Part shown: piece by piece, positions 1 to 8,768 of the stretch
Layout of the letters: each line of letters begins with the position of its first letter
How positions within the stretch are numbered: the stretch's first letter is position 1
IMG/VR virus record: IMGVR_UViG_3300035698_020817
Location: 1-38,268 of that record
Length of the DNA stretch: 38,268 nt
Source: a virus
Reading direction: 5' to 3' (one strand)
Made by a program: the position numbers and the translations under genes
The notes under the pieces: model-generated
Database searches by the model: none
Seen by the model: the letters and a program-made list of their open reading frames with translations, nothing else
Told to the model about the DNA's origin: nothing

Positions 1-127
1 GACATGTCAAACGAGTGAAAAAATAACTCCGCATAACATTCTTCATTAATCGTTCTTTTTTAGTCAGAACTACAATGTAAAACTCGTTACCATGGTCTTT
101 TTTTCCACGTTTAATCGCTTCTTGAAC
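1..127. repeat. Terminal direct repeat, left copy (assembly overlap)
   Basis: The first 127 bases are identical to bases 38142-38268. An exact overlap of 127 bases is the signature of a circular contig from an assembler run with k-mer 127. A gene is also read continuously across the joint, which supports a circular or circularly permuted molecule of about 38,141 bp. A true 127-bp phage terminal repeat is possible but less likely, because the repeat begins and ends inside a coding frame. Confidence 0.95.
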
Positions 128-268
128 GTTGCTTTCATAATCTTTGAGCTGTTCTTGCGTTTGTTCGTGAGGAGAATGGTCAATAGTCTCGTTTTTTAAT
201 ATGAGGTCACGTGATATTTTTCCGACTGTCTCACGGTCAGTTATTAACTTCTTCTTTTTTTCTTTCAC
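1..268 (-). CDS. Conserved virion-region protein, N-terminal part of a gene crossing the contig ends
   Basis: On the minus strand a frame opens with GTG at 268, preceded at good distance by an AAGGAAG ribosome binding site, and runs off the left edge. Joined to 38141-37900 through the 127-bp overlap it gives one 169-residue protein. The N-terminus is very rich in lysine and charged residues; the centre has a FYIVVLT strand and then KKERLMKNVMR. No family is recognised with certainty. It lies in the head operon between the scaffold gene and two small genes before the portal, so a role in head assembly is inferred from position only. Linear gene callers would miss this start and begin the gene at an internal methionine. 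Confidence 0.8.
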   Translation of the reverse strand, partial: MKEKKKKLITDRETVGKISRDLILKNETIDHSPHEQTQEQLKDYESNVQEAIKRGKKDHGNEFYIVVLTKKERLMKNVMRSYFFTRLTC

Positions 269-338
269 TATCTTCCTTTTTTATAGAAGGGATGAGGAAG
301 GGTTAACGGAGAGCAGAGACCCTTCCCCAGGGAGAGAT

Positions 339-488
339 TTACCTTTCTCGCATCGTAAGTTCGTAATTAAGACGATCTTCTCTACGCTGTGAAGTTCCTC
401 GCTTAGAAAAAGATCGCATATTAGGAGGAGTTCCTAATATAGCATATGCAATTTTTTTCGCTTTACCGTTAGGTCGAGGCATTGTCAT
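339..488 (-). CDS. Small basic protein of the head operon (49 aa)
   Basis: A 49-residue frame starts at ATG 488 (a second ATG two codons later is equally possible) and ends with TAA. It begins MTMPRPNGKAKKIAYAILG and is strongly basic, with many Arg and Lys. It lies 8 bases downstream of the stop of the 72-residue gene and about 70 bases before the GTG start of the origin-crossing gene, so all three look co-transcribed with the portal. No family is recognised. The basic composition would suit nucleic-acid or scaffold binding, which is only an inference. Confidence 0.55.
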   Translation of the reverse strand: MTMPRPNGKAKKIAYAILGTPPNMRSFSKRGTSQRREDRLNYELTMRER

Positions 489-496
489 ACTATTCC

Positions 497-715
497 TTAG
501 TATTTTTCAGGATAAGCACCTTTCTTCAATGAAGAAGAACTTAGATCATCCTTAATTTGTTTATCAATTCCAGAAAGAGTGTCGTTAAGTTCAGGGCTAC
601 TATAATAAGATTCTTTTGGATATAGAACATATTTAACTTCTTGAGGAAGATTTGCTATAGCGCTCATATCTTCTTTAATCATCATTGAGTCATTATAGTA
701 CTTTTTCTTAGCCAT
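497..715 (-). CDS. Hypothetical head-operon protein (72 aa)
   Basis: The start is set at ATG 715 because AAGGAG lies a few bases upstream; a longer frame reaching 775 would overlap the portal gene and lacks such a site. The 72-residue product begins MAKKKYYNDS and is hydrophilic, without membrane segment or signal peptide. It follows the portal gene by about 10 bases, so it is part of the same operon. I do not recognise the family. Confidence 0.65.
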   Translation of the reverse strand: MAKKKYYNDSMMIKEDMSAIANLPQEVKYVLYPKESYYSSPELNDTLSGIDKQIKDDLSSSSLKKGAYPEKY

Positions 716-725
716 GAAAGGCTCC

Positions 726-2801
726 TTATATAGAAACTGCAGGTCCATTGTTATTAGGACCGGCAAGGTTATCACCTCTATCTATCACAGGACCACCCTG
801 TAAAGAAGGTGTTTGTTCTTGTTTAGATTCATTCGCTTTTAAAGCATCTGCAATAGCTAAAAGCTTTTGTATTTGTGTAATATCAATATCATCCAATTCT
901 TTCATAGCTTTAACTTTATTGAGAGTAGCCATTTCACGATCTTTGTTGGCTTCTGCCATTCTTTCAACCGCAAGCGCTCTATTTTCTGGTATTCTAGAGA
1001 GGCGCTCCTGCCCAAGAGAATTATCAGCGATTGCCCGAGCATGTGCAAGATCAGTTCGTGCTTTTTGCTCTTCAACAGTTGCTTGTAATTGCATTTGTTC
1101 TATTTTAGCTTGTTCTTCTTTTTGTTTTTGCATATTCTCAATAATTTCATCTTTATTTTGCATAGTAGCAGCAAGTAAAAGATCTTCGTCAGTTATAGGC
1201 ACACCAGCTTCACGAAGTTGTAACATTTGAGCAAACTGCATCTGTTTTTGAGTAGTTGTATTAAGACCATCTTCAACAGCAGCGTCATATTTACCAAAAG
1301 CTTTATTATAAAACTGCTTAGATGGCTCTTCTTCGATTATTCGAGAAACTTTACCCGGAGTGAAGTTAGACTGAATAACCTTAATCATTAACTTACCAAG
1401 AATCTTTTGAGACCTATCTAGTTGATCAAAAAGTATTTGAAGAGTAGTAAGACCAGCACCTTGTCTCAACATAGATAAAATACCAGCTTTATCGTCAGTT
1501 GCAGAACCAAGAAGCTCTTCATTAACACCAGAAATTTGATTTATTTCTTGAGCCATATTTTCTGATAATTGGAATAATGACGGTGGTATCTGCGGAGGAG
1601 TAATAGCCTCAACATCAGACATTTGCGCTTCTTCTTTAAGTGCAAGCCCACGACCTTGCCCAGACATGAATATATCTTTCGGGTTAACAAGCGCATTTTC
1701 TTTATACTTAAAGCCTGAATTAATCTGAGACTCTACGATATCGAGTTCGATTACCTTTCTGCGATTAAACACGTACTGAGCGTCTCTAAGCCCTCGAACC
1801 ATTCCTTGTATTCTATTAGGATAATGAGGCATTTGAGGGTTAAAGTAACCTAAAACAGGAACGAATGGATACTCATCTATACCAATAGGATTAGGCCCAT
1901 CGTACATAACCTTACCCTGAACAACGATAGCCACCTTAACAGTAGGAATATCTTGCTTAATAACCTCAACTTGCGGGTAAAGCGCAACAAAATCTTTTAA
2001 TGCGTCAGGATCTTCTGACTTCCACTCAAGTGTTTCGCCAGTTTCTGTATCAACTAATACTTCTTGAGTCCTATAGTCACGATAATAAAATTCATCGTAC
2101 GCTAAGAGGCTGTTTGTATTAAAGTTGTAGTTCTCTGGTAAAAATTCAAACTTTCCATCACGCTGATGACCATGAGGAAGCTCCATAATCTCTTTAGCCG
2201 AGTCAGGAAGCAGTGACAGTACTTCTTTTCTAGTAAGATACGCGCGTTTCCATATACCATTACAGTCAGATAAATCAGCTTTTCTGAAATAGGGGTCAAT
2301 TAAAAAACTATTATATGCGCAGTTATCTACTTTTATGTTTCCTGAAATTGGATCTGACCTATAATCTACAGATATTTGTAAAAGATTAAGCCCTGTAACT
2401 AACGTTCCATGAAATGACTCTGAAATTGTCTCTAGAATACCTTCTTGTTGGTTAGCCCATAACATAATCTTCGAAAATTGGTCTGCTGTAGCTTGGTCTG
2501 AGTTTTCAACAGGAACAACAATAGTAGATTTACGATTACGTCGCTGGTAACCAGAGGCCATGTTAATAACACGTCTAATTCTATTAAATTGGAATTGTCT
2601 GTTTCTATGTGCTGGTAGGTTACCATAAATTTCGTTCCATAAAGTCTGATCTCCAGCCTCAAACCGAGTATCGGTATCAGCTTCACCCCAATACGACTGA
2701 TTTATCGTAATGCTTTCTGAATAAAAATGTTCCATTCTTTGGAGAATGCCGCGGTTCTTTTCATCGTAATATTGCGGTCCTAGGTTGGGAAACAAACTCA
2801 C
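726..2801 (-). CDS. Portal protein, P22 type
   Basis: This is the dodecameric ring at the capsid vertex through which DNA is packaged and ejected. The protein has about 691 residues, the size of P22-type portals. The N-terminal part has RFEAGDQTLWNEIYGNLP and a NRIRRVINMASGYQRRNR segment typical of the family. The central part has YPFVPVLGYFNPQ and GMVRGLRDAQYVFNRRK, then the helical SENMAQEINQISGVNEELLG region. The C-terminal 150 residues are Gln/Lys/Glu-rich coiled-coil, as in long portal barrels. I prefer the GTG start at 2801, which has AAGGGAG six bases upstream; a TTG at 2807 is too close to that site. It heads the small-gene head operon, and TerL lies upstream on the same strand. Confidence 0.92.
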   Translation of the reverse strand: MSLFPNLGPQYYDEKNRGILQRMEHFYSESITINQSYWGEADTDTRFEAGDQTLWNEIYGNLPAHRNRQFQFNRIRRVINMASGYQRRNRKSTIVVPVENSDQATADQFSKIMLWANQQEGILETISESFHGTLVTGLNLLQISVDYRSDPISGNIKVDNCAYNSFLIDPYFRKADLSDCNGIWKRAYLTRKEVLSLLPDSAKEIMELPHGHQRDGKFEFLPENYNFNTNSLLAYDEFYYRDYRTQEVLVDTETGETLEWKSEDPDALKDFVALYPQVEVIKQDIPTVKVAIVVQGKVMYDGPNPIGIDEYPFVPVLGYFNPQMPHYPNRIQGMVRGLRDAQYVFNRRKVIELDIVESQINSGFKYKENALVNPKDIFMSGQGRGLALKEEAQMSDVEAITPPQIPPSLFQLSENMAQEINQISGVNEELLGSATDDKAGILSMLRQGAGLTTLQILFDQLDRSQKILGKLMIKVIQSNFTPGKVSRIIEEEPSKQFYNKAFGKYDAAVEDGLNTTTQKQMQFAQMLQLREAGVPITDEDLLLAATMQNKDEIIENMQKQKEEQAKIEQMQLQATVEEQKARTDLAHARAIADNSLGQERLSRIPENRALAVERMAEANKDREMATLNKVKAMKELDDIDITQIQKLLAIADALKANESKQEQTPSLQGGPVIDRGDNLAGPNNNGPAVSI

Positions 2802-2876
2802 AAACAACTCCCTTTTTTGAAAAAGTTAACATTTATTCAAGTTCAGTCTAAAAAGAGAACCTATTGATAGCAAGTT

Positions 2877-3179
2877 TTAAGGTTTAATCGGCGGAACAGA
2901 CAAAAGAGCGTAATGAGTAAAGTCATCTAACAAATCTTGGTCGTTATATTTATAAAATTCATCAGTGCCACATTCGTACCCAGAAGAAAGAATTGACCAG
3001 CATCTTTCCAACTCCCCTTCAGATAGGGTACAACTGCTTAATCCGAACAACTTTATTATACCAAACGCATAATCTATATCTTCTTTAAATGCTTCGTCAT
3101 ACACAACAAATGGAACACCAGACCTTTCTTTAGTTCCAAGTACTTCAAGAGCTTTTTTATCTAGCTTTTTCCAATTCAT
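2877..3179 (-). CDS. Hypothetical protein (100 aa)
   Basis: A 100-residue acidic protein starts at ATG 3179 with AAAGGAG seven bases upstream. It begins MNWKKLDKKALEVLG and contains several cysteines (SSCTLSEGELERCW, YECGTDEF) that do not form a clear zinc motif. It is the first minus-strand gene after the divergent control region at 3180-3315 and stands just upstream of the portal. No family is recognised. Confidence 0.7.
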   Translation of the reverse strand: MNWKKLDKKALEVLGTKERSGVPFVVYDEAFKEDIDYAFGIIKLFGLSSCTLSEGELERCWSILSSGYECGTDEFYKYNDQDLLDDFTHYALLSVPPIKP

Positions 3180-3246
3180 AGAATTACTCCTTTATTTATC
3201 AGACACTTTTCTCTTGTACATAACGTTACTATACATATATGCACAT

Positions 3247-3275
3247 TTGACATATTTGTGTATATATGTTATTCT
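3247..3275 (+). promoter_or_regulatory. Sigma70-type promoter TTGACA-17-TATTCT
   Basis: A consensus -35 box TTGACA at 3247-3252 is followed after exactly 17 bases by TATTCT at 3270-3275, about 40 bases before the zinc-ribbon gene at 3316. It faces the plus-strand regulator island and lies in the divergent gap opposite the gene starting at 3179. The spacer contains ATATATGTTATT, a 12-mer that recurs in the divergent region near 13004, suggesting a shared operator. Confidence 0.7.
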
Positions 3276-3315
3276 ATATATAAGAGGTAAGAACAACACA
3301 AAGCGAAAGATAATT

Positions 3316-3477
3316 ATGAAAGAATATAAAACACACTCAGATAAATGCGGAGATAGTCATTATCACCAATCAGACTTTTTAGGTCGGCGTGGAAAACTTA
3401 TAAAATGCGAAGAATTCCATCACTTTGAAGGATCAATTATGTGCGCAGAATGTGTGGAGAAATTTAATGAAAGATAA
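3316..3477 (+). CDS. Small zinc-ribbon-like protein (53 aa)
   Basis: The ATG at 3316 follows the promoter at 3247-3275 by about 40 bases. The 53-residue product has Cys and His spaced like a small zinc-binding fold: KCGDSHYH, then LIKCEEFHHFEG, then MCAEC. A longer frame reaches back to 3214 but would add a hydrophobic run encoded by the promoter itself, so it is rejected. Its stop overlaps the start of the next gene, indicating translational coupling. Function unknown; a regulatory role is inferred from the neighbours. Confidence 0.6.
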   Translation: MKEYKTHSDKCGDSHYHQSDFLGRRGKLIKCEEFHHFEGSIMCAECVEKFNER

Positions 3478-3652
3478 AAATAAAGTGTCACGAATATCCA
3501 TTGATCTACCGTCAGACCTACAAAGAAAGCTGAAAGCTATAGCGGGCCTCCAAGGAACAACAATGAGAGCTGTAATCGTTCAATCTCTTGAAAATGAATT
3601 CGCTTCAATTAAAGAAACAACACAGCAATCAATTGAAAAACTTAACATGTAG
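3467..3652 (+). CDS. Ribbon-helix-helix DNA-binding protein
   Basis: The 61-residue product starts at ATG 3467, inside the end of the previous gene. Its first part, VSRISIDLPSDLQRKLKAIA, followed by TMRAVIVQSLENEF, matches the strand-helix-helix pattern of CopG/Arc/MetJ-type repressors. Such proteins bind as dimers to short inverted repeats and often control their own operon. Likely targets are the promoter just upstream or the divergent minus-strand genes. It may instead be the antitoxin of a module, but no toxin is recognisable next to it. Confidence 0.75.
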   Translation: MKDKNKVSRISIDLPSDLQRKLKAIAGLQGTTMRAVIVQSLENEFASIKETTQQSIEKLNM

Positions 3653-3668
3653 CCATAGAAGAACGTAA

Positions 3669-3854
3669 GTGAGAAAATTATCCGAATATTTTGGAATAAA
3701 AGAAGCCGCAGAATTTCTTGGAATAACAGAAAATACACTGCGAAACTGGGAAGTTGCAAAAAAGATACCAGTACATCGCAACCCTATAAACAATTACAGA
3801 TTATACAAAAAAGAAGACCTTGAAGCGGTGCTTAACAATATAGAACAAGTATGA
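3669..3854 (+). CDS. MerR/excisionase-type helix-turn-helix protein
   Basis: The 61-residue product begins at GTG 3669. YFGIKEAAEFLGITENTLRNWE followed by RLYKKEDLEAVL is the MerR-like winged helix seen in excisionases, small phage regulators and the N-terminus of IS607-type resolvases. It stands alone here, with no catalytic domain attached, so a DNA-binding regulator is the likely role. No integrase is found in the genome, which argues against an excisionase. Confidence 0.75.
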   Translation: MRKLSEYFGIKEAAEFLGITENTLRNWEVAKKIPVHRNPINNYRLYKKEDLEAVLNNIEQV

Positions 3855-3903
3855 AAAGACTTTATTGGTAAAGATTGAACAATGAAAACAAAAAGGAACC
3901 ACG

Positions 3904-4383
3904 ATGCCCTCTAAAGAAGTAATTAAAAATAAGTTAAAAGAACAAAAGGATCGCCTACAAAAAGTATTCGACATACCATTTCTTTATTTTGAATTCTTAA
4001 AAGAAGAAAATAGCGATCTCTTCTCCAGATGTTTTGAAATAACAGGTCCTGAAGGATCAATGTTTGACGCAGAAACAAAAGAATATATAAAAGAATTAAA
4101 TGATTTGGTTGATGAAGCGATATGCGCGAAAGAGACACAACAAAGAGTATGGGGCGACATCGGAACTAAAATTGAATTGTTGAATAAGTTTAAAGATCAT
4201 GCCAAAAATGGATGTGCAGATAAAACATGCACTGAAGTCAATAAAGTATCTGTCTTAAACAGCCATTGTCTTAAAAAACTAGGAACAACAAGAGAAGATT
4301 TAATAAAAACATGCTCCGAGGCTCAACTCTATATTGATAAACTGGCAAGAGATCCTAATTCTATAGTTGAGATTAACAAGTAA
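3904..4383 (+). CDS. Hypothetical protein (159 aa)
   Basis: The ATG at 3904 has AAAGGA upstream. The 159-residue product is hydrophilic and mostly helical, with Lys/Glu-rich stretches and five Cys in its second half (NGCADKTC, NSHCLKKLG, KTCSEAQ). It is the last sizeable gene of the plus-strand regulator island. A palindrome follows directly after its stop. No family recognised. Confidence 0.65.
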   Translation: MPSKEVIKNKLKEQKDRLQKVFDIPFLYFEFLKEENSDLFSRCFEITGPEGSMFDAETKEYIKELNDLVDEAICAKETQQRVWGDIGTKIELLNKFKDHAKNGCADKTCTEVNKVSVLNSHCLKKLGTTREDLIKTCSEAQLYIDKLARDPNSIVEINK

Positions 4384-4386
4384 AAT

Positions 4387-4401
4387 AACGATTAAATCGT
4401 T
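4387..4401. repeat. 15-base palindrome AACGATT-A-AATCGTT
   Basis: A perfect inverted repeat with 7-base arms lies immediately after the stop of the 159-residue gene. It is AT-rich and not followed by a T run, so an operator or weak hairpin is more likely than a terminator. Confidence 0.5.
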
Positions 4402-4426
4402 GGTCTAAAGAAAACAGAAAGGAGCT

Positions 4427-4504
4427 ATGCTTTCAATTCATGCTCCTGTACTGTTAAATGAGAATAATAATTTAATTTTGTCCCCAAATGTGGCGGGTGG
4501 CTAA
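4427..4504 (+). CDS. Possible very small protein (25 aa)
   Basis: AAAGGAG precedes an ATG at 4427, which opens a 25-codon frame ending in the odd Gly-rich stretch PNVAGG. The ribosome binding site is among the best in the window, which is the only reason to list it. It lies in the convergent gap between the plus-strand island and the minus-strand paralogue pair. It could be a chance frame. Confidence 0.25.
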   Translation: MLSIHAPVLLNENNNLILSPNVAGG

Positions 4505-4531
4505 AAGTGTGGTAGGGGTGAATGGGATCAT

Positions 4532-4918
4532 CTAAAAAACTTTAACTACTTCTTCGCCTTCAACCTCTTTTAACACTATTTTCAACAAAATGGACAAAAA
4601 GGTTTCAACAGTCAACCCATAAGACATAGCTTCTTTTTCTATGTCAGGGAAAGTGTCATATTCCCTTACGCTATAATCACCACTAAGAAGGACAAAGTCA
4701 TTCAACCTCACCCTTAATGTCATTGCCCCGCTATCAACTTCTTTTAAATCAAGAGCATTAAAATGCGGCGCCTTTACTGTACTATCATCGCCCTTAAACG
4801 CTTCGCTTATTCTTCTAATCAAAAAGTTGAATTCACTAGATAAGCAAGTAACAGAAATTGCAACCATCTTCTTTAATGTCTCGTCGTCTACCTTAATGTT
4901 TATATATCTATCTTCCAT
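4532..4918 (-). CDS. RHH-like protein, paralogue of the upstream gene
   Basis: The 128-residue protein begins MEDRYINIKVDDETLKKM, a strand plus helix resembling a ribbon-helix-helix N-terminus. The remainder is unrecognised and acidic. It is clearly related to the 133-residue neighbour: both begin MED, then IKV-DET-K-M, and both end in a helix resembling LSxxLKxxVxE. Its start overlaps the last codons of that neighbour by 11 bases, so the two are translated together. They probably arose by tandem duplication. Confidence 0.65.
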   Translation of the reverse strand: MEDRYINIKVDDETLKKMVAISVTCLSSEFNFLIRRISEAFKGDDSTVKAPHFNALDLKEVDSGAMTLRVRLNDFVLLSGDYSVREYDTFPDIEKEAMSYGLTVETFLSILLKIVLKEVEGEEVVKVF

Positions 4919-5309
4919 CTTCTTCTTCTTCCTTTTTCTTCTTCATAACTGCATCGATAATACCCTGAGGGCGATCTCGAACTTCCTGCTTTAACATAAG
5001 AGATAATAAAACCTCAAAAGACAATCCATTAAACTTAGCTTCCTTTCTAATCTTTACAAAAGAACCGTAACTTACAAAGTCAGATGATATTTCCATAAAA
5101 CCTGAAGCAATACATTGAATATCTTCTGAGGTAAAGGTCCATTTGCTCGGACAATAAGACGAAGACATGTTTATTCCCCGTTCTTTAAACCCTTTATTAA
5201 TTGCAAAATTGAATACTACGTTTAAACTAACAGAGCACTCTTCTGCAATCTCAGTCATTCCCTTTACTGTTTCATCTGCTACTTTAATGCGAGTATGATT
5301 ATCTTCCAT
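4908..5309 (-). CDS. RHH-like protein, first of a tandem paralogue pair
   Basis: The 133-residue protein begins MEDNHTRIKVADETVKGMTE and continues with SLNVVFNFAINKGF, the pattern of a ribbon-helix-helix domain. The C-terminus is a highly charged KKKKEEEEDGR tail. It is preceded by a purine-rich AAAGAGAAG site and lies about 20 bases after the TerL stop. Related genes elsewhere in the window at 3467, 25353 and 25516 share only the RHH pattern. A DNA-binding role is inferred. Confidence 0.65.
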   Translation of the reverse strand: MEDNHTRIKVADETVKGMTEIAEECSVSLNVVFNFAINKGFKERGINMSSSYCPSKWTFTSEDIQCIASGFMEISSDFVSYGSFVKIRKEAKFNGLSFEVLLSLMLKQEVRDRPQGIIDAVMKKKKEEEEDGR

Positions 5310-5330
5310 CTTCTTCTCTTTCTTAATTAA

Positions 5331-8300
5331 TTATCTAAAAAACCTCGGTAAACCAGCGTTATCACCAAGCATAGCTTCTCTATAATTACGATCAAGATCT
5401 TCTGATGTTGCTCCTTTTCTACAGAGCCTTAAAGATAAGCACATATAACGCAAACTATCACACCAATGAGAGTTGTTATCGTGAAGTGGATGAGCTTTAT
5501 ATACCTTGTTTCTTGAGTCATATTCTTTTCTATAATCTCGTATCGCCCGAATAAGATCTTTACACTTACTCTCATCTATCCATATACGAGGCAACGTTGA
5601 ACGGACAGCTTCTATTCCATCCATAATCGATACATTAGGTACCGCAGAATGCCGCAAGTTACGATCTGTTTTTACCTCGAATTTAACACCAAGCTCTTTA
5701 GCTTTGTCCCAACGAGACATTCCAGAACCAAACTCACGGACCATGATGTCATGAGGGGCAAAATGTTTATTGTAGTTATATGGCTTCTCTTTTACTACTC
5801 CAACATAATGTTCAAGACCTTTACTATCATTACAATACGAATCAATAATATGTATAGATTTTCCTACAAGCTGGAAAAAGAGAATCACGGTTGAGTCTCT
5901 AACCCCTAAATCCCAGGCAGTATTAACCTGAAACGCTGGCTCCCATGGAACTGAAGTTGTCTGGTTATTAAGCTCCATGTTATTAAGATATTTACCGTAG
6001 TATGAACCGAGCGCGCCTGTAGAAAACGAACAGTTGTGAACAGCTCTTCCATAAACTAAATAGCTTTCATCGTACTGAACACTAAAATTATATACTTTCC
6101 CCGAGAACACAGCAGAAGAAACTTCACGAACACGAGCAGCTACAGAGTTTTTAGCACGCATTAAATATGGCTGCTTTGACCCAAGCCGCTGAAACCATAC
6201 TGATACACTGTATGATTCCTGACAATTTACTACCCTTCCTTCTATTTCTCCCTTGCATGCAGGCCTTTTTGATATTCCAGTAGTAAATCCATCATTAATA
6301 CTATTAGCTAAGAGTTGCACTTGATAAGCAAGAGACTTGCTTACAGTTGAATACATATATTTTTCTGCTTTTCCGCTTTTATTATAACAACCATCGCCCT
6401 TCATTAGTTCATAGAAAAATTCTTTTTCATGTCCACCGATCAAAGAAAATGGAATTCTTTTATTGTTTGCTTGAGTTCCGCAATTATCTTTAAAAAAATC
6501 CACAAACTGAACTGAATTACACACAATGTTAAACGCTGTTCGAGCCTTATACACAGAAAATTTAATATTTAAGTTGTTAAGATAAGTCGATATTCTATCA
6601 ACAGTATCTTGAGTCCCTATTGTGAATTGAACACCATTCTTGAACGCACTTCCATCACAAATATACCAACTCAACAACATACATAAATCAAAAGAAATAA
6701 CAGAGTGCTTTCCAAGAGCCATCTTAGGAAAAACAAGAAAATCTTCTAATGTAATATCTTTTGCCTTCTTCCATGTATAAGTTTGGCTTGTTCTGTCATA
6801 TGTTCTTATAGGGTGTTCTGGAGTGCATCGTATTACTTCGCATGAACCATATGATTTAATTTCATAAAGATCTCCGCTATATTCTCTTGAAACAGTATCA
6901 GTTACTTTGCGGATTCTTCCTGTATGAGAAAAAACCATATCATTCACTTTAATAGCATCAATTCTTTTAACACCACTAGACGTAACAATATGCTGATCAC
7001 CAGGGAAACAATAATATTCTTGTTCAATCATGTCCTCACTCATGAGGCCTTCTTCGCGTTCTTTTTCAATAAGCTCCGGAGAGACAACATTAGTGTCTTC
7101 TATTGTAAGCAAGTCACTATGCCAATCATCAGAATTTCGTGCAATTTCATAAAGGGAATAGAAATGATTTTGGCCAAATGGCGTACTGATGAAGACACAC
7201 CACCCATCATTAGCGACTAAAATAGGTCGCAAGGTAGGGTAGGTTTCAGGGTGCTGGAAGGCGTATTCAGAGAAAACTATTCCTTTTGGATTACTTCCTC
7301 TCAAAGAATCGAAATTATCGCTGCCAAGAAAATATATCTTCGAACCGTTAATTAACTCTATCTTCATCTCTTGTAAGTTAACCTTCTTGATAAGCTCTTC
7401 TGGAATATAATCTAAAAATCGCTGACCTGTCATAGTCATGCCTTCAAAGATAACTAATCGAGCCTGCCTGTAAGTAGGTAAAAGATAATAATATGACCCA
7501 ACAGTCTTAATTGCTTGCCTAATAACGAGGTTAAATGCGGCTACATCCTTTCCACTGTTGTGAACAAGGAACCCATTAGCAATAAAATTATGATTATTCT
7601 CTGTTTCTATATCAAACAGTTCTTTAGATTCACCATCTGAAACATTAAAAATTGTGCTAAAGCACGACTTAAACGTTTTTCGATCTTTAGAGTATTTTTC
7701 TATAAGTTTTAGCGCCTGTTTCTGATATTCTTCTTTTCCATAGACTCTATACGTTAAAACCTTTTTGACGTACTCTTGCTTACCAACCTTTATCTTCCAG
7801 TTTGAACCTCTTTCTTTGTATGGATTTTGAGGCATAACCCCAATCTTTCTAAGGACCCAGTAGATGTCCCACGCATACTCATAACTTTCACCACAATTAA
7901 AAGTTACTTCGACACCTGGAGGAACAGTTTTAGTTGCGTCTTTTGGATTCCAAGTCCTTTCATTGCAATAAATGCTACCATCAGCGGATATAAGCGCAGA
8001 AATAAAATATAAAAGAGACTCTTGGTTAAAATTCCATATTGATTTTGGCAATCGCTGTTTGCTTTTGACGATATTACATCCTTCAGCCCGAAAAAGATCT
8101 TTTATTGGATTAGCATAAGGTCCTTCAAGAGTTTTCTTAGAAAACCCAATATCGTAACCGTTGCCTTTCTTCCTCCAAACAGGCTTTACATCGAAAAGCT
8201 TACATGCTATAAACTCAACCCTATTAAGAATAACGTCATTCGTGTTAGTAAACTTTGGTTGTTGATATGCAGAAACATACCCGTCAGCTAACATGAATCC

Positions 8301-8768
8301 CCAAAACTCTGCCAACAAATTATCTTTTATATCCCCAGTGTCAATTCCAGAATACTGAAGCATTTGTCTATTTTTACCTATCTCTTTAAGCGGATTCCAT
8401 TTTACTTTACTCGAAGACGAGTGAGTATGTGCAAAAACATGATCGTCAGATGAAATAACTGAAAGATTTGGCGAAGAAACTACCTTTGTGTCCTTAACGC
8501 CTGTAGACCACTTGTGCTTAACCTTGTCAGAAACAAAAGACTCTCCATCCCACGAAAGAATAGAGTCTCCCTCTTTAATATCTCTTAAAAACTTAAAAGA
8601 CCCATCACTCATTGTGATATGACTATCACCAGAAAGACATCTTCTATGCCACACGAGAACAGCGCGTTTAATACCCTTGTTTTCAATGGCATGGAACAAA
8701 CCCTTTTGGTATGATCGTGGCTTGAATTTATTTAACTTTATCTTCGTCTGTACACTCAGGTTATTCAT
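5331..8768 (-). CDS. Terminase large subunit (TerL) carrying two inteins
   Basis: This is the packaging motor: an ATPase and nuclease that cuts concatemeric DNA and pumps it into the prohead through the portal. The reading frame has 1145 codons. Removing two inteins (residues 44-404 and 587-912) leaves 458 residues, a normal TerL size. The spliced protein has Walker A VWHRRSGKD, a Walker B-like IVFSEYAF, motif III FISTPFG, and a nuclease domain with [10 protein letters not shown], then HDIMVRE, then [13 protein letters not shown] supplying acidic metal ligands. Intein 1 sits inside Walker A between R43 and S405, so the unspliced enzyme should be inactive. Intein 2 sits at the ATPase/nuclease boundary (EQEYY then CSFSTG). 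The start overlaps the HNH gene by 8 bases. Confidence 0.95.
6033..7010 (-). mobile_element. Intein 2 in TerL (326 aa, LAGLIDADG-type)
   Basis: Residues 587-912 of the TerL frame. It begins CFPGDQHI (block A, Cys1), has a block [10 protein letters not shown] with the conserved TxxH, DOD-type endonuclease motifs near LLSWYICDG and [10 protein letters not shown], block F around [16 protein letters not shown] and block G AVHN, with Cys as the +1 residue. Cys1, the penultimate His, the terminal Asn and Cys+1 are all present, so it should self-splice. The endonuclease motifs keep the acidic positions, suggesting it was recently active. Precise removal joins EQEYY to CSFSTG, the usual TerL sequence. 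Confidence 0.93.
7557..8639 (-). mobile_element. Intein 1 in the TerL Walker A loop (361 aa, LAGLIDADG-type)
   Basis: Residues 44-404 of the TerL frame. It begins CLSGDSHI (block A), has block [11 protein letters not shown], two DOD motifs ([13 protein letters not shown] and [13 protein letters not shown]), block [17 protein letters not shown] and block G FLVHN followed by Ser as +1. All splice residues are intact. Excision creates WHRRSGKD, restoring the P-loop. Highly conserved ATP-binding sites are classical intein homes, because imprecise loss is lethal. The two inteins in this gene differ in sequence and so look like independent arrivals. Confidence 0.94.

Follow-up and report, generated by a model that had tools for sequence, protein, structure and literature searches.

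In our reading, two class-1-type inteins, both equipped with a LAGLIDADG homing endonuclease of their own, entered the large terminase gene (terL) of an uncultured tailed phage in separate events, and an HNH gene, the third homing-type element of the locus, has entered the overlap between terS and terL; we put the probability of this reading at about 0.93. The gene lies in a window of 38,268 nucleotides (the whole stretch of DNA analyzed, IMG/VR record IMGVR_UViG_3300035698_020817), a virus record that also encodes a phrog_156 portal, a RusA-like resolvase, and an Erf-like annealing protein.

The terL frame and its exteins

The terL frame comprises 1145 codons, read from 8768 to 5331 on the minus strand, with zero internal stops; a preliminary description of this DNA had placed the gene at 5331-8768, and this placement is right. 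The identification of the frame as TerL, also made there, is borne out by matches to PHROG terminase families and by an alignment to the TerL of P74-26, a protein of solved structure, in which HRRSGKD falls on the P-loop GRQSGKS and ISTP on the coupling motif. From this alignment, which spans the P-loop to the ISTP motif, and from the PHROG families, the exteins can be seen to hold Walker A, a Walker B-like motif, the coupling motif, and the nuclease domain. Pfam terminase models gave no match to the TerL exteins at E≤0.1.

Together, the inteins make up 687 of the 1145 residues (residues 44-404 plus 587-912), or 60.0% of the frame, in agreement with the lengths of 361 and 326 residues and the share of 60 percent given in the preliminary description. 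Removal of both leaves a predicted spliced TerL of 458 aa; its computed mass is 53.2 kDa, instead of the 52 kDa proposed earlier for such a product. After in-silico splicing, the main PHROG terminase match, 66.7 bits for the unspliced frame, became a single continuous match of 108.9 bits over residues 11-428. The unspliced frame is 2.5 times the true length, a warning for annotation and phylogeny pipelines in which TerL serves as a marker.

Table 1. Features of the terminase locus in the window
Feature	Positions	Strand	Evidence
terL open frame, 1145-aa precursor	5331..8768	-	PHROG terminase large subunit matches on extein parts
N-extein, TerL residues 1-43, terminating within the P-loop (WHRR)	8640..8768	-	Colinear with intein-free L002
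Intein 1 (site A), 361 aa, residues 44-404, Hint domain and two LAGLIDADG motifs	7557..8639	-	Pfam, AF2 and Foldseek, recurrence
Middle extein, residues 405-586, remainder of ATPase domain	7011..7556	-	PHROG matches, P74-26 TerL alignment
Intein 2 (site D), 326 aa, residues 587-912, Hint domain and LAGLIDADG endonuclease	6033..7010	-	Pfam, profile match, recurrence
C-extein, residues 913-1145, nuclease domain	5334..6032	-	phrog_2472, E=2e-40; 91% identity over 188 residues to L002
Free-standing HNH endonuclease ORF, 241 aa, between terS and terL	8761..9486	-	phrog_374 HNH endonuclease, E=1.8e-56; absent from L002
Probable terS	9440..9961	-	Position and colinear L002 gene, 73% identity over 163 aa
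Upstream copy of duplicated terS/terL overlap (terS 3' end, also HNH 5' codons)	9452..9477	-	26 bp, 88% identical to downstream copy, E=1.8e-4
Downstream copy of duplicated overlap (terL 5' codons)	8737..8762	-	Nearest to the single L002 copy

Two inteins at sites A and D

Intein 1 divides Walker A between Arg and Ser (WHRR/SGKD), and the alignment of this site to GRQSGKS of P74-26 TerL agrees with its earlier placement inside the P-loop. Taken alone, the segment scores 37.2 bits with Pfam Intein_splicing, over the cut-off of 35.8; LAGLIDADG_3 gives 19.3 bits, slightly under the Pfam cut-off of 22.5, and the fold supports a LAGLIDADG endonuclease. An AF2 model computed from a 17-sequence alignment reaches a pLDDT of 92.2, and its best Foldseek matches are crystal structures of inteins and homing endonucleases, the first being the TliVMA intein (7qsu, E=3.5e-19); on this model, intein 1 is predicted to adopt the Hint fold. 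Cys1, block-B His67, and the terminal HN are invariant in the family, as are the acidic LAGLIDADG residues Asp119 and Asp220 in the 17 aligned members, and the +1 residue is Ser. A search with intein 1 of 50,697 phage records returned zero matches at E≤1e-5.

Intein 2 interrupts EQEYY/CSFS at the ATPase/nuclease junction, past the ATPase motifs, where the preliminary description had it separating the two halves of the protein. The WDLG motif, which we take to belong to the nuclease half of TerL, is placed downstream of this site. Alone, intein 2 scores 36.3 bits with Intein_splicing (cut-off 35.8) and 33.9 bits with LAGLIDADG_3 (cut-off 22.5), and its profile matches PI-PkoII (2cw7, E=2e-11). 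The AF2 model, made from a two-sequence alignment, has a pLDDT of 37.5, too low for use; a Hint fold is predicted for this intein from its Intein_splicing score. In its family, Cys1, block-B His66, and the terminal HN are invariant; the +1 residue is Cys. LAGLIDADG residue 119 is Asp in the window and Glu in L029, one of the related contigs, and Asp206 is invariant.

The inteins are only distantly alike (hhalign probability 95%, 21% identity; 27% over 88 residues) and are therefore distinct elements, not the outcome of a recent duplication. The preliminary description had claimed two distinct full-length inteins with Cys1, a block B His, a terminal His-Asn, and Ser or Cys at +1, and all of these were found intact. 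The LAGLIDADG-type motifs it had noticed are likewise present, two with their acidic residues in each intein, and in the Hint and LAGLIDADG domain search that it suggested, run here with Pfam, both inteins pass Intein_splicing, while LAGLIDADG_3 is passed by intein 2 and narrowly missed by intein 1.

Intein-free alleles

Contig L002 encodes a TerL that is 88-89% identical to the exteins over its full length and has neither intein. Its gene order is that of the window (RusA, terS, terL, small ORF, portal), the HNH gene is also absent, and it retains 30 of 40 bases around site A and 37 of 40 around site D as an empty target. A second contig, L119, has an intein-free TerL that is 72% identical to that of the window in the nuclease segment, and the window clusters with L002 and L119 in the extein tree with 99% SH-aLRT support. 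Besides L002, 59 further dereplicated relatives have an intein-free TerL. The comparison with intein-free TerL that the preliminary description had proposed thus finds the exteins colinear with L002 at 88-89% identity. Given L002 and the other intein-free TerLs, the two segments are therefore insertions; the idea that they are normal TerL domains is ruled out by the empty L002 allele and the 59 other empty relatives. Two intein gains in the lineage of the window are the simplest reading, bearing in mind that change counts alone cannot separate gain from loss. The double-intein window and the intein-free L002 form a clean natural control pair.

Mobility of the inteins

Each intein family is present in other viruses without the other, that of intein 1 at RR/SGKD and that of intein 2 at QEYx/C. 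Since each is found alone at identical sites, the two are independent mobile elements. The intein 1 site is occupied in 34 further dereplicated viral TerLs, and the elements at site A vary in size, the full-length forms having ~360 aa and the mini-inteins 128-162 aa. Homologues of intein 2 occur at the same junction as in the window, most of them in TerLs whose P-loop site is empty.

At site A, Ser is found at +1 in all 35 dereplicated carriers versus 13 of 65 scorable empty TerLs (Fisher p=1.8e-16, relatedness ignored); at the empty site the residue is Ala in 48 of 65, L002 being one of the Ala alleles. This bias fits both the chemistry of splicing, in which a nucleophile is required at +1, and co-conversion of the codon in homing. 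Intein distances do not track extein distances across 22 full-length carriers of a site-A intein (Mantel r=-0.03), a result that at ~47% identity may partly reflect saturation, and on the extein tree the presence or absence of a site-A intein must have changed at least 19 times. The missing correlation and the number of changes, drawn from a sample enriched for inteins, suggest frequent horizontal movement of the inteins.

Five insertion sites and multi-intein terminases

Five intein sites were found in this TerL family: A in the P-loop, B before the LRGSN motif, C in the coupling motif (S/TP), D at EYY/C, and E in the nuclease motif SHx/CDAxRY. Example inserts at sites C and E have Hint or intein matches. 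Site B is the least certain of the five, and its inserts may be unusual inteins or elements related to them; the insert in L068 has a good LAGLIDADG match and a weak Intein_splicing match. The site-B inserts of L068 and L054, at extein position 126, begin with Cys and end with SGN, not HN.

In a sample of 104 dereplicated TerLs, enriched for inteins by design, 44 bear inteins, and 12 of these 44 have two or three; apart from the window, there are 11 multi-intein TerLs, two of them triple. When contigs were chosen by the nuclease domain, blind to inteins, 11 of 80 had at least one intein and ~5 of 80 had two or more. The preliminary description had called double-intein terminases rare, a statement at odds with the 12 multi-intein genes among 44 and with the cases already published, those of cyanophage Mic1 (PMC7156551) and the crAss-like phage OBYQ01000140 (PMC7886860). 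Multiple inteins in TerL are uncommon, yet not exceptional in this family. The triple-intein terminases are those of L038 (1426-aa TerL, sites A, D, and E) and L071 (1182-aa TerL, sites A, C, and E).

Site E of the window is empty and has Cys at +1 (SHWCDSLRY, 5460-5462, minus strand), where L002 has Ala. This Cys could be a trace left by a third intein that has since been lost, but it is found in 13 site-E-empty alleles, the window included. In L112, an apparent single-base frameshift, possibly a sequencing error, lies around 410-440 in the terL P-loop; a P-loop intron reading was dropped because the feature resembles a single-base frameshift in the contig. An Rfam search of the window, L112, and L003 found no RNA intron.

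An HNH gene in the terS/terL overlap

In L002 and L119, the end of terS runs into the start of terL for a few dozen bases, and no gene lies between them. In the window, a piece of this overlap is duplicated around the HNH gene, a gene that the preliminary description does not mention, and terS and terL are therefore both unbroken; the start codons of the HNH ORF match the old terL start. The probable terS had no match in a PHROG search. L126 repeats the pattern at the protein level, its HNH protein beginning MGVETTIKLNKFTPR and its TerL MGIETVIKLNKFSPR, and in six other viruses (L112/L113, L126, L135, L137, L163, and L175) an HNH gene immediately precedes terL. The region upstream of the terminase has been described as a hotspot for homing-endonuclease-like genes (PMC10448857).

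We tentatively suggest, with slightly less than even confidence, that this terL family is a multi-site parasite hotspot, in which up to three inteins per gene occupy five sites at or near catalytic motifs, long and mini forms alternate at the P-loop, and the HNH element duplicates the terS/terL overlap as it enters, thus taking over the terL start and leaving both genes whole. The hotspot deserves a systematic survey. In this family, the same terL has from none to three inteins distributed over five sites, which suits it to the study of how an essential gene is invaded and of whether several inteins can coexist cost-free.

Comparison with known systems

The TerL of cyanophage Mic1 resembles that of the window in having a pair of dissimilar inteins, of which at least one includes an endonuclease domain, but it is the nuclease domain, rather than the ATPase/nuclease junction, that its second intein interrupts, and an endonuclease is reported only in its larger intein, whereas both inteins of the window keep their endonuclease domains (PMC7156551). 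In OBYQ01000140, a Delta-group crAss-like phage, TerL is likewise split into three in-frame parts with two inteins between them; there, Hint-Hop inteins are combined with TAG recoding, in contrast to Hint and LAGLIDADG domains and the standard code in the window (PMC7886860). The TerL inteins of mycobacteriophages, at sites a-g, also target the P-loop and other ATPase motifs (Kelley et al. 2016, PMC5050341), and splicing has been demonstrated for five of them and cutting of the intein-free target for two of these five (PMC5050341). Site a of the mycobacteriophages separates the invariant Lys and Thr, and site b is one residue off, whereas the break in the window, R/SGK, is ahead of the Lys; every one of the mycobacteriophage sites falls within the ATPase domain, unlike site D of the window, at the domain end, and site E of its relatives, in the nuclease domain (PMC5050341). 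Colonization of the terminase locus by inteins and/or homing endonuclease genes is shared with terL of Campylobacter phage IBB_35 (PMC3322345) and with homing endonuclease gene islands (PMC10448857), although the HNH gene of IBB_35 is in an intron and that of the window is free-standing (PMC3322345). The TerL intein of Caulobacter phage CcrColossus, considered as a same-site case, lies at P-loop K/S and is without Cys1, and is thus a different insertion.

Proposed mechanism and alternative explanations

We infer splicing, endonuclease activity, and homing for both inteins. Excision of intein 1 through Cys1, the terminal Asn, and the +1 Ser would reconstitute WHRRSGKD in the P-loop, excision of intein 2 through Cys1, the terminal Asn, and the +1 Cys would reconstitute EQEYYCSFS, and the precursor would thereby become the 458-aa TerL. 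Each endonuclease would cut the intein-free terL of phages infecting the same cell, and repair of the cut allele would then install the intein there, converting nearby bases, including the +1 codon. By analogy with the mycobacteriophage TerL inteins, selfish homing combined with obligatory protein splicing is the best-supported account, and the locus is best read as a hotspot densely settled by such elements. It is plausible, as stated in the preliminary description, that DNA packaging depends on the two splicing reactions and would wait for them.

It is conceivable that the inteins are instead retained as a conditional-splicing control of packaging, keeping the ATPase off until both have left and so timing motor assembly. 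Site A does break the P-loop, the sites of the family lie at or near catalytic motifs, and roles of this kind have been proposed by Kelley et al. (PMC5050341) and by the Mic1 authors, who suggest intein control of packaging (PMC7156551). However, insertion into conserved motifs is equally expected for homing targets, the close relatives L002 and L119 are intein-free, and intein presence is scattered over the tree; we regard such control as unlikely. HNH genes adjoin terL in several relatives, as would suit a packaging cofactor like HK97 gp74, a precedent discussed in PMC10448857, rather than a mobile element. A cofactor role is quite improbable for the gene in the window, which is missing in the closest relatives, L002 and L119, and is flanked by the duplicated terS/terL stretch expected for an inserted element.

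For a metagenomic contig known from sequence alone, it might also be asked whether one or both inteins have decayed and can no longer splice, leaving a defective allele, and the LAGLIDADG score of intein 1 does fall under its cut-off. Against such decay stand the single uninterrupted frame, splice-junction residues that are intact and conserved in both families, the +1 Ser and Cys in place, and stop-free exteins 88-89% identical to the empty allele, and we consider it very unlikely. That an assembly artefact or chimera put intein sequences into terL can be practically discounted: we found no point in its favor, the junctions are exact and in-frame at both sites, the same sites are filled in many independent contigs, and in IMGVR_UViG_3300046360_000144 (L038/L111/L153) the sites of both inteins are filled and a third intein is present.

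Genomic context

The nearest named genome match is a Methylococcaceae metagenome-assembled genome, at 53% over the nuclease segment, which is too distant for this family to be proposed as the host. A megablast search of window positions 1-12500 against phage records gave no match. Elsewhere on the minus strand, large ORFs of 513 and 790 aa (16646-18187 and 20090-22462) are without a PHROG match, and a second, different HNH endonuclease gene (phrog_1872/phrog_59) lies at 23495-24136. The adjacent small ORFs at 4532-4918 and 4908-5309, also on the minus strand, look like paralogues (MED..IKV.DET) and are represented by a single copy in L002.
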